In this document: piece by piece, positions 36,172 through 48,233 of the stretch
Position numbering within the stretch: the stretch's first letter is position 1
Layout of the letters: every line of letters starts with the position of its first letter
Assembly (NCBI GenBank): GCA_003217735.2
Contig: CP031585.1
Span: 3,769,501-3,833,500 of the forward strand
Length of the DNA stretch: 64,000 nucleotides
DNA from: Marinibacterium anthonyi
Lineage (GTDB): Bacteria; Pseudomonadota; Alphaproteobacteria; Rhodobacterales; Rhodobacteraceae
Direction of reading: 5' to 3'
Position numbers and translations under genes: made by a program
The notes under the pieces: model-generated
What the model saw: only the letters and a program-made list of their open reading frames with translations
The model's database searches: none
What the model was told of the DNA's origin: nothing

Positions 36172-36402
36172 CCCGCCCTCCTGGCTTGGTCACCGGACTA
36201 TCCGGCACCTGCCGCCCGAATGACAAGCCCATGAACGCCGTCGCCCAAGACGCAATCAATCCGATTTTCAGGGGCCCCGATCTGCATGCAGTTTCTGCAT
36301 AGCAGCATTGAAGAGGTATCCATTGTGCACCTGCAGCATGAAATCTAAGTTTGGGCTAACAACGACGACGAAACAACACCTTAACTCAGAAGGCCAAGAG
36401 CT

Positions 36403-36621
36403 ATGAGCAAGCAGATCGCAATGTCGGCCCCGATGGCCCACGAACCCGCTTTGCTGCGTAACCTGATGGATCGGTTCGTGGCACGCCGTGCCCGCAACAA
36501 GGTCTACCGCGAGACCCTCGCAGAGCTGCGCTCGCTCAGCGACCGCGATCTCAGCGACCTCGGCCTGGCCCGCTCGAACATCAGCAGCGTCGCCTGGGAA
36601 GCAGCAAACGGCGCCCGCTGA
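36403..36621 (+). CDS. DUF1127 small protein, likely CcaF1-type, host gene of the sRNA array
   Basis: A 72-residue protein ending in a DUF1127 (YjiS-like) domain: RARNKVYRETLAELRSLSDRDLSDLGLARSNI. These arginine-rich proteins bind RNA; in Rhodobacter sphaeroides the DUF1127 protein CcaF1 is encoded directly before the CcsR sRNAs and affects their maturation. Here six CcsR-like units begin 21 bases after the stop. AGAAGG precedes ATG 36403. The upstream region (36280-36350) has repeated CTGCA/TGCAT motifs; the Rhodobacter promoter is of heat-shock sigma type, but a matching pair could not be assigned here with confidence. Confidence 0.85.
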   Translation: MSKQIAMSAPMAHEPALLRNLMDRFVARRARNKVYRETLAELRSLSDRDLSDLGLARSNISSVAWEAANGAR

Positions 36622-36642
36622 GGCGCCAAGGAACACAGAGAT

Positions 36643-36714
36643 CAGGTTTCCATCTCCTCCTCCCTTGGAAACCTGACTAAGCGGCGGCATCCTCCTCCTC
36701 CCTGATGTCGCCGC
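36643..36714 (+). ncRNA. CcsR-like sRNA unit 1
   Basis: Hairpin A pairs CAGGTTTCC with GGAAACCTG (36643-36675) around a loop with CTCCTCCTCCC; after ACTAA, hairpin B pairs GCGGCGGCATC with GATGTCGCCGC (36681-36714) around the same loop sequence. It begins 21 bases after the DUF1127 stop. Its stems differ in sequence from later units while the loops are the same. CTCCTCC can pair with GGAGG, so the RNA may act on ribosome binding sites or sequester an anti-SD-binding factor. Confidence 0.8.
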
Positions 36715-36748
36715 GCTTTATACCGGCCCCGAATGCCGGAACAGAACG

Positions 36749-36824
36749 CACCGGGAGCTCCTCCTCCTCCCTTGTTTCCGGTGTGTCAGCGGCGGTTACC
36801 ACTCCTCCTCCCAGGTGCCGCCGC
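36749..36824 (+). ncRNA. CcsR-like sRNA unit 2
   Basis: Hairpin A pairs CACCGG with CCGGTG (36749-36783) with loop CTCCTCCTCCTCCC, the longest CTCC run of the array; hairpin B pairs GCGGCGG..ACC with GGT.CCGCCGC (36789-36824). A spacer hairpin (CCGGC/GCCGG) separates it from unit 1. Confidence 0.8.
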
Positions 36825-36859
36825 ACACCCATACCGGCCTTGAACGCCGGAACAGAATG

Positions 36860-36932
36860 CACCGGGGCTTTCCTCCTCCCTCGCTCCGGTGTGTCAGCGG
36901 CGGTTGCCACTCCTCCTCCCAGGTGCCGCCGC
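36860..36932 (+). ncRNA. CcsR-like sRNA unit 3
   Basis: Hairpin A CACCGG/CCGGTG (36860-36891) with loop TTTCCTCCTCCC; hairpin B GCGGCGG/CCGCCGC (36897-36932) with loop ACTCCTCCTCCC. It differs from unit 4 at only two positions (one in each hairpin), indicating recent duplication or gene conversion. Confidence 0.8.
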
Positions 36933-36967
36933 ACACTCATACCGGCCTTGAACGCCGGAACAGAATG

Positions 36968-37040
36968 CACCGGGGCTTTCCTCCTCCCTCGCCCCGGTGT
37001 GTCAGCGGCGGTTACCACTCCTCCTCCCAGGTGCCGCCGC
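36968..37040 (+). ncRNA. CcsR-like sRNA unit 4
   Basis: Same two-hairpin plan as unit 3 (36968-36999 and 37005-37040), exactly 108 bases further on. One change, T to C in the closing arm of hairpin A, extends the stem to CACCGGGG/CCCCGGTG. Confidence 0.8.
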
Positions 37041-37075
37041 ACACTCATACCGGCCTTGAACGCCGGAACAGAATG

Positions 37076-37148
37076 CACCGGGGCTTTCCTCCTCCCTCGC
37101 TCCGGTGTGTCAGCGGCGGTTACCACTCCTCCTCCCAGGTGCCGCCGC
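37076..37148 (+). ncRNA. CcsR-like sRNA unit 5
   Basis: Same plan (37076-37107 and 37113-37148), again 108 bases from unit 4. The spacer after it switches to a CTGGTC/GACCAG hairpin, marking the junction between the homogenised units and the divergent last unit. Confidence 0.8.
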
Positions 37149-37182
37149 ACACTCATACTGGTCGCAAGACCAGGCCGATATG

Positions 37183-37265
37183 CGCCAGGACGTTTCCTCC
37201 TCCCTCGATCCTGGTGCTGTAGCGAACGGCGGCGCCACTCCTCCTCCCAGGCGTCGCCGTTTCGC
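37183..37265 (+). ncRNA. CcsR-like sRNA unit 6 and probable transcript end
   Basis: Hairpin A is CGCCAGGA/TCCTGGTG (37183-37216), different in sequence from CACCGG/CCGGTG but equal in shape; hairpin B is a longer stem, GCGAACGGCGGCGCC against GGCGTCGCCGTTTCGC (37222-37265), still with loop ACTCCTCCTCCC. The longer final stem followed by GTTT suggests it also ends the transcript. Confidence 0.75.
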
Positions 37266-37841
37266 GTTTACGGGACTCCGAAAAGCGAAACCTCGCTCAA
37301 CTTCAGTTGATTTCCGGTCAATTTCTGAAAAATTTGAAACAACCGCATCGAAAAATATTCTCGGTCGTGTAAGTTGTACGGAAGATTTCGGTCCCGCACA
37401 GACGCGACCAGACGCGGAGCATGGCGCAGGCGAATTCAATCGCACGGCTTCGGACCTGCCGGATCGATTGAATGGATTCTGGTATTGTGGCGATGTCCAC
37501 TGCGACCGCTTTCGGAACCAGGGAAAAGGATTTTGATTTCAGTCCACTACCAGCCCGATACAGCCAGTGGGGCCATTGCCCGCCCGGCCCTGCCGTCGAT
37601 GGCCGACTGGACGCCGGAAGCACACGGCGGGCATTCCCCGGCCATTCGGTCCTGCCAGAAACCCACGATCGTATTCGCAAAACCTCACGCCACATAGGTC
37701 GCGATCATGGAACAATTTGGCTTCGGCAGCGTCCTATGTTTCATAGATGAGAAATAGTTGCCGGTCTGAAATCCCGCTGCCGTGCAATCCCCCGGATGCG
37801 CGGCAGGTTGCCTGAGCGGAGAGAAGGAAGGAAAGGGTTCC
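37266..37841. other. 576-base gene-free stretch after the sRNA array
   Basis: No supported gene or RNA. The first part is AT-richer than the surrounding genome (AAAATTTG, AAAAATATTC near 37328-37365). The end carries the strong ribosome binding site AGAAGGAAGG of the next gene. The promoter of that gene must lie here, but no clear boxes were found. Confidence 0.4.
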
Positions 37842-47910: not shown

Positions 47911-47985
47911 GCGGGCGTAGCTCAGGGGTAGAGCATTACCTTGCCAAGGTAAGGGTCGAGAGTTCGAATCTCTTCGCCCGCTCCA
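47911..47985 (+). tRNA. tRNA-Gly (GCC), copy 1
   Basis: A complete cloverleaf: acceptor GCGGGCG/CGCCCGC, D arm, anticodon stem TTACC/GGTAA with anticodon GCC (47943-47945), T arm with TTCGAATC, discriminator T and encoded CCA. It decodes GGC and GGU. An identical copy is 248 bases downstream. Confidence 0.97.
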
Positions 47986-48158: not shown

Positions 48159-48233
48159 GCGGGCGTAGCTCAGGGGTAGAGCATTACCTTGCCAAGGTAA
48201 GGGTCGAGAGTTCGAATCTCTTCGCCCGCTCCA
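48159..48233 (+). tRNA. tRNA-Gly (GCC), copy 2
   Basis: Identical over its 75 bases to the first copy, including CCA. The preceding bases (CTACCC, then A, then GGAC) are also nearly the same as before copy 1, so the duplication took in a little flanking DNA. A hairpin follows. Confidence 0.97.

Follow-up and report, generated by a model that had tools for sequence, protein, structure and literature searches.

A six-unit CcsR/cuckoo-type array of anti-Shine-Dalgarno RNAs behind a DUF1127 gene in Marinibacterium anthonyi, and its promoter element

Anatomy of the locus

The window, i.e. the whole stretch of 64,000 nucleotides of Marinibacterium anthonyi DNA that was analysed, contains a short DUF1127 gene and, 3' of it, twelve exact CCTCCTCCC loops of the anti-Shine-Dalgarno (aSD) type, arranged in six pairs (span 36656-37248). 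The features are, in positions of the window:

36295..36310, plus strand: upstream operator-like block CTGCATAGCAGCATTG, holding at 36295-36305 the sequence CTGCNNNGCAG, a reported PhaR site (PMC12542648); block kept with two mismatches or fewer in 46 of 49 loci
36322..36339, plus strand: second conserved block ATTGTGCANNNGCAGCAT; 0-2 mismatches in 49 of 50 loci
36323..36351, plus strand: putative RpoH-like promoter TTGTGC-N17-TAAGTT with a weak -10 (compare the legend of PMC10673084, and PMC3441632)
36403..36621, plus strand: DUF1127 protein of 72 aa, CcaF1-like (Pfam PF06568, E 1.6e-10)
36639..36720, plus strand: unit 1, two aSD hairpins (loops start at 36656 and 36694; Rfam CcsR1, E 5.1e-9)
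36723..36739, plus strand: mini-hairpin without aSD loop, after unit 1
36746..36830, plus strand: unit 2 (loops 36763 and 36804; CcsR1, E 6.2e-6)
36834..36850, plus strand: mini-hairpin after unit 2
36855..36938, plus strand: unit 3 (loops 36872 and 36912; CcsR1, E 8.3e-9)
36942..36958, plus strand: mini-hairpin after unit 3
36963..37046, plus strand: unit 4 (loops 36980 and 37020; CcsR1, E 9e-10)
37050..37066, plus strand: mini-hairpin after unit 4
37071..37154, plus strand: unit 5 (loops 37088 and 37128; CcsR1, E 5.3e-9)
37158..37173, plus strand: mini-hairpin after unit 5, with other stem bases
37179..37266, plus strand: unit 6 (loops 37196 and 37240; CcsR1, E 5.6e-7)

In local folds, a stem closes each of the twelve loops, whose starts lie 38-44 bases apart within a pair and 68-69 bases apart from one pair to the next, and the array region as a whole (679 nt) folds 9.3 standard deviations below its dinucleotide shuffles (z -9.3), none of 20 shuffles being as stable. 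All six units have the same orientation. The spaced three-loop pattern is matched in the own genome at the array locus only (five matches on one strand) and its reversed control nowhere in that genome, so that chance is a poor explanation. Units 3-5 follow one another at an exact 108-base period with 98-99% identity, unit 1 and unit 6 are 47-49% and 64-66% identical to units 2-5, respectively, and the hairpin of the last spacer (37158-37173) differs in its stem bases from the four preceding spacer hairpins. An earlier sequence-only reading had claimed twelve hairpins in six pairs after a DUF1127 gene, a 108-base repeat in units 3-5 and a last spacer with changed stem bases, and these claims hold in full. 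The second hairpin of unit 6 is followed by a T-rich but broken tail, and the two together are a possible candidate for the 3' end; a terminator scan flagged no intrinsic terminator at this end of the array.

Long open reading frames across the array (e.g. 36677-37156 on the minus strand) track the 108-base period, and a protein-coding repeat was set aside. Elsewhere in the window lies an identical pair of tRNA genes (47911-47982 and 48159-48230, 248 bases start to start) with the anticodon GCC as read from the sequence.

Relation to the CcsR and cuckoo RNAs

The search with Rfam covariance models, which the sequence-only reading had proposed as a check, gave an answer with two sides. The CcsR1 model (RF02791) matches all six units, each aligning to the full 83 positions of the model (E 9e-10 to 6.2e-6), but with 33.0-46.0 bits none of them reaches the gathering score of 65.3 bits; the array is presumably CcsR-like in its working and is not a member of RF02791 at the curated cut-off. 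The ar14 model (RF02344), which represents the NfeR1 family of Sinorhizobium, likewise has two aSD hairpins and matches some units, but the scores stay under its cut-off (48.5 bits against 58.8 for the region of unit 1).

What kind of locus is this, then? It is one that is already known, a CIN1 locus with hairpins of the cuckoo family, here in a well-preserved form with six units. The cuckoo RNA family and the CIN1 locus of alphaproteobacteria were reportedly described by Reinkensmeier and Giegerich in 2015. Of the features that define such loci, at least two adjacent CCUCCUCCC-loop hairpins are present with 12 of 12 loops exact, the stems vary with their pairing kept (see the covariation below), and a short DUF1127 gene is linked to the hairpins both here and in 50 of the 52 arrays compared. 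The CcsR/cuckoo-like layout put forward at the outset is thus borne out.

In Rhodobacter sphaeroides, ccaF1 and CcsR1-4 are reported to be co-transcribed from an RpoHI/RpoHII promoter, the DUF1127 protein CcaF1 assisting RNase E in cutting the common transcript (PMC10253847, PMC8625941, PMC7866481), and CcsR1-4 are freed by RNase E as separate sRNAs (PMC10253847, PMC7866481). Short DUF1127 genes together with CcsR-like RNAs have been named the CIN1 locus and their hairpins the cuckoo family (PMC10253847, PMC4504443), with which the present locus shares the conserved aSD loop, the freely varying stems and the short DUF1127 gene; RNAs that carry two, three or four hairpins with aSD loops have also been described (PMC3927594). 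As in R. sphaeroides, a DUF1127 gene (71 aa there, 72 aa here) is followed by tandem CCUCCUCCC-hairpin RNAs; unlike there, the units number six instead of four, and the intrinsic terminator reported for that locus has no clear counterpart among the sites found here (PMC10253847). Two further differences are the mini-hairpin between units, which lies outside the stretch matched by the CcsR1 model, and the twelve hairpins in six spaced pairs, where two to four hairpins are described for the cuckoo motif (PMC4504443).

Distribution and copy number

Of 295 genomes sampled evenly across the family of this species, 135 contain a spaced pattern of at least two units. At the level of the class, 289 genomes (four family members among them) gave two matches, both in the family; the 285 class genomes outside the family gave no spaced array of at least two units with a pattern that misses other spacings, and as far as this pattern can tell the spaced array seems specific to the family. 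The 52 arrays compared comprise the own array, two from the same genus, 30 loci from the family pattern search and 19 from 20 genomic loci that were hand-picked, mostly for their many matches, which biases array sizes upward. A DUF1127 open reading frame, detected with a profile grown from the protein of the window, precedes 50 of the 52, in the same orientation and with 20-349 bases between it and the first loop. Marinibacterium profundimaris is the one named relative found, its DUF1127 protein being 82% identical.

Is the array an expanded one, as the sequence-only reading had it? The comparison does not sustain this claim. The 52 arrays hold from 4 to 14 exact loops, at least 12 of them in 13 arrays (in a sample skewed to large arrays), and a sister species (G239) also has 12. 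At least five pattern matches occur in 12 of the 295 family genomes and more than the five of the own genome in six of them. In these counts, other spacings and loop variants escape the search patterns, and where loops are dense (e.g. G018, G046) matches do not equal units. One assembly (G295) breaks inside its array, both contig ends (end of L036, start of L048) entering the same last unit; its loop number is uncertain, with nine and four loops on the two pieces.

Covariation of the stems and a conserved inter-unit hairpin

The stems covary between genomes. When the 3' flanks were swapped between 34 genomes, with the register re-fitted, pairing in the first (A) hairpin fell from 0.89 to 0.72 and in the second (B) hairpin from 0.97 to 0.82, the best of 200 swaps giving 0.77 and 0.85, respectively; the 34 are those of the 52 arrays that have a regularly spaced unit. 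In an alignment of 23 units from 23 of these arrays, both-sided changes occur in 15 of 16 consensus pairs, and single pairs of the A hairpin and the mini-hairpin are broken in 3-7 of the 23 sequences. Conservation of the stems in relatives, on which the first reading had in part staked its claim, is thereby supported. By an ungapped stem score, 291 of the 462 loops of the 52 arrays lie above the 99th percentile of shuffled flanks, and hence not every hairpin is strong.

Between the units, following an A/U-richer linker, stands the mini-hairpin that lacks an aSD loop. Over 126 spacers from 44 genomes its median z is -1.8, the genome mean is below -1 in 40 of the 44, and its helix score of 14.75 compares with 11.2 when the halves are swapped (best of 30 swaps 12.2) and 9.8 when they are shuffled. 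Two of the 126 spacers (L028, L034) have a variant aSD hairpin in its place. A+T makes up 60% of the 8 bases that follow the second hairpin, as against 36% of whole units. We infer that the mini-hairpin serves as a processing landmark.

Turnover of the middle and persistence of the edges

When the three species of the genus are compared, first units agree with one another at 86-90% and with every other unit at 43-59%. Last units are 81%, 79% and 72% identical to one another and 53-72% identical to the remaining units, so that the positional match is clear for two of the three species pairs. Comparison of middle units inside one genome gives identities of 83-99% (one unit of the sister species G239 stands apart with 72-74%), comparison between genomes 69-82%. 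The same pattern recurs in 21 regular arrays compared with their loops removed, 31 of the 52 having been dropped for fewer than four regular pairs or too many leftover loops: the mean interior-to-interior identity is 0.81, the first-to-interior identity (0.55) is lower than it in all 21 and the last-to-interior identity (0.67) in 16 of 21. In arrays with an odd loop number the last pair need not coincide with the last unit, and L036 lacks part of its true last unit because the contig ends there. The identities support a middle homogenised by unequal exchange or gene conversion, as had been supposed from the window's own repeats.

The sequence-only reading had also attributed the divergent edges to selection for structure. 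The edges, however, are kept in sequence and not merely in fold, the last unit less clearly so than unit 1. Beside the identities just given (86-90% for unit 1, 72-81% for the last unit) stands an arm of the form GATG[TC]C[GA][CT]CG[CT] after loop 2, found in 13 of the 52 arrays (the window, L005, L006, L010, L015, L019, L027, L036, L037, L071, L075, L077 and L082) and after none of 410 other loops (p 1e-13, without tree correction); arms of this GATGTCGCCGC kind are confined to the second hairpin of unit 1. For the last unit, a role of its second hairpin as the 3' end may explain why this hairpin is kept.

A promoter element shared across the arrays and with solo aSD RNAs

The block ATTGTGCANNNGCAGCAT lies within 200 bases before the DUF1127 start in the 49 of 50 loci given above, in 30 of them exactly, by a search pattern that was itself derived from loci of the own genome; of 1000 shuffles, one reached three mismatches and none fewer. 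A further block, CTGCATNGCAGCATTG, stands 11-12 bases upstream of it in 47 of 49 loci and has at most two mismatches in 46 of 49. This promoter element, shared across the arrays, is new here.

The own genome (G000) has four exact copies of ATTGTGCANNNGCAGCAT, and all of them precede aSD-RNA loci, namely the present array and three solo genes; four other copies with one mismatch have no aSD RNA in the following 260 bases. In all, this genome has four solo two-hairpin aSD RNA genes (on L001, L100 and L002), whose promoters are alike in layout and contain a CTGCNNNGCAG site:

G000:C1:141072-141200: solo aSD RNA
G000:C1:146551-146680: solo aSD RNA
G000:C1:2581770-2581912, minus strand: solo aSD RNA
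G000:C4:141390-141530, minus strand: solo aSD RNA, with a decayed ATTGTGCANNNGCAGCAT block

The solo gene at C1:2581895 has the variant CCTCGTCCC as its second loop and was noticed only through the second block. Each of the four solos closes with an aSD hairpin and a T run behind it, a combination that looks like a terminator with an aSD loop. A degenerate fifth solo (L175:760-910, G000:C8:98.7 kb) retains one intact CCTCCTCCC loop and a decayed partner, with CTGCGATGCAG upstream.

The array and the four solos, i.e. five loci of the own genome, have in common the layout TTGTG[CT]-N17-TA[AT][GC]T with a weak -10, at a place where a sigma-70 scan found nothing. An RpoH-type promoter of another DUF1127 gene has TTG at -35 and TAT at -12 according to a figure legend (PMC10673084), and TTG at -35 is reported for promoters of the RpoHI/HII type (PMC3441632). 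The layout would be compatible with an RpoHI/HII-like promoter with a weak -10.

Which mRNAs might such loops meet? The own genome matches the pattern GGGAGGAGG-N3-11-ATG 22 times (two of the matches share one site) and its reversal not once; 20 of the matches were translated, and the two on C8 were read from the matches themselves and from L175. Six are antisense to aSD hairpins, five precede reading frames of 1-52 aa and 11 precede frames of at least 138 aa; ten of these 11 were scanned, the eleventh being a second copy. They include an enoyl-CoA hydratase, a 3-oxoadipyl-CoA thiolase, an acyl-CoA-ligase-like protein and a quinoprotein-dehydrogenase-associated SoxYZ-like carrier, in a list that does not identify real targets because GGAGG is part of any strong Shine-Dalgarno sequence. 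One MFS-type transporter gene occurs in two copies 153 kb apart (G000:C1:52356 and C1:205698; L050, L053) with the same GGGAGGAGG leader, and the residues compared (up to 400) look identical.

Does PhaR read the carbon store into the element?

The sequence CTGCNNNGCAG is the reported site, in R. sphaeroides, of PhaR, the repressor that senses polyhydroxybutyrate (PHB) stores; in Sinorhizobium meliloti, the -35 of phaP1 and that of phaP2 each lie between two PhaR palindromes, and the sRNA MmgR is repressed by PhaR (PMC12542648). The present loci resemble these PhaR-controlled promoters (phaP1, phaP2 and mmgR of S. meliloti; R. sphaeroides PhaR) in having CTGCNNNGCAG-type sites around -35, and an sRNA gene as a PhaR target is known from mmgR (PMC12542648). 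They differ from them in that the DUF1127/aSD arrays are predicted targets; a link between PhaR and such arrays was not found in the titles and abstract beginnings of the matching open-licence PMC papers.

At the arrays, CTGCNNNGCAG is perfect in 34 of 49 loci and has at most one mismatch in 46 of 49, as against 1.0% and 3.8% of random windows. A site of this type precedes all four solos of the own genome, which keep CTGC...GCAG with other centres (ACT, GTT, AAT and AAT). The own genome has a phaR gene (a protein with PF07879 and PF05233 at C1:1499.4 kb), and CTGCATAGCAG, located between phaZ (PHB depolymerase) and phaC (PHB synthase; L120:1381-1540, G000:C1:1494.69 kb), is an 11-mer identical to the one before the array.

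In the family, PhaR (PF07879) is present in 285 of 295 genomes and the bipartite element in 167 of 295. Among well-assembled genomes the element occurs in none of five without PhaR and in 152 of 255 with it (one-sided p 0.012, no tree correction); among all genomes it occurs in two of ten and 165 of 285, respectively (p 0.020, again with no tree correction). Four of the five well-assembled PhaR-less genomes also have no multi-unit array by pattern, and the absence of the whole locus may account for the loss of the element in these. That leaves G150 as the one telling case: this genome (L142; 100% complete) has no PhaR match and keeps an array of eight loops and, by eye, a DUF1127-like reading frame, while its promoter element is absent, the best block matches having five and four mismatches. 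Two genomes have the element and no PhaR match (G098, 84% complete; G166, 71% complete), perhaps because they are incomplete. Conversely, 103 of the 255 well-assembled genomes with PhaR have no element match, among them G018, G051, G091 and G149, in whose arrays the element departs from the bipartite search pattern.

We give an even chance to the proposal that PhaR gates, in the Rhodobacteraceae, an RpoH-type stress promoter common to the DUF1127-aSD array and the scattered solo aSD RNAs; how much general translation-blocking RNA a cell makes under stress would then depend on its carbon store, with the arrays, homogenised in the middle and stabler at the edges, as a dosage device. Could the element instead be the site of a different, dedicated regulator, or a mere extended promoter? 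This is a serious contender, albeit one that we are slightly inclined to doubt. The combination of CTGCAT[AG]GCAGCATTG and ATTGTGCANNNGCAGCAT is stricter at the arrays than a CTGCNNNGCAG site requires, the core CTGCAT[AG]GCAG varying less than binding by PhaR would call for and having a centre other than the RNY of the S. meliloti PhaR motif, and the second block, which lies between -35 and -10, fits a PhaR site only with a four-base centre and one changed base. It is harder to see why a different regulator would leave CTGC...GCAG in place at the solos with the centre changed, why the identical 11-mer should lie between phaZ and phaC, why two sites should flank -35 in the layout of S. meliloti phaP1 and phaP2 (PMC12542648), and why the element should be missing from all five well-assembled genomes that lack PhaR.

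A working model for the array

The anatomy, the covariation, the conservation across the family of DUF1127 gene, array and promoter block, and the pattern of unit turnover are together best explained by an operon of the CcsR/cuckoo type, an explanation that we consider probable. By analogy with R. sphaeroides, one promoter, probably of the RpoH type, would give a transcript with the small CcaF1-like DUF1127 protein and six two-hairpin aSD RNAs. This transcript would most likely be cut by RNase E and the DUF1127 protein in the A/U-rich linkers ahead of the mini-hairpins, yielding six RNAs of roughly 85-110 nt; the last hairpin would probably form the 3' end as well. Each RNA would expose two CCUCCUCCC loops, pair with purine-rich ribosome-binding sites (GGGAGGAGG) of presumed targets and block their translation under stress, the copy number setting the dose. 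Middle units would be swapped and homogenised by recombination, with unit 1 and the last unit being stabler, and the array would probably be held down by the PHB-responsive repressor PhaR via the CTGCNNNGCAG sites.

Might the array instead act as one long unprocessed 3' UTR, a multivalent RNA of twelve loops that collects mRNAs or titrates a protein (Hfq or the DUF1127 protein), with copy number setting valency and not sRNA dose? The single orientation of the units would suit such an RNA, as would the one terminator-like site across the region, no more than in shuffles (mean 1.3). We nevertheless think it improbable: CcsR1-4 of R. sphaeroides are freed separately by RNase E (PMC10253847, PMC7866481), the second hairpin is followed by the A+T-rich bases described above (60% against 36%), and two-hairpin units of like kind stand alone as solo genes in the own genome. 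That the repeats are due to chance or are a selfish tandem repeat devoid of RNA function, as the nearly identical middle copies might suggest, is rejected as wholly implausible, being contradicted by the compensatory changes in the A, B and mini-hairpins (34 genomes; 23 units), the fixed loops and the retention of the gene (50 of 52) and the promoter block (49 of 50 loci).

For a CcsR/cuckoo-type operon, the array is a well-resolved case added to a known family. Its comparison yields a conserved inter-unit hairpin and stabler edges around a homogenised middle, both of which may already be contained in the CcsR or cuckoo papers, and a family-wide promoter element that resembles PhaR sites around an RpoH-type -35. 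Should the PhaR reading hold, a large family of bacteria would have its carbon storage coupled to a broad stress response of the anti-Shine-Dalgarno type.
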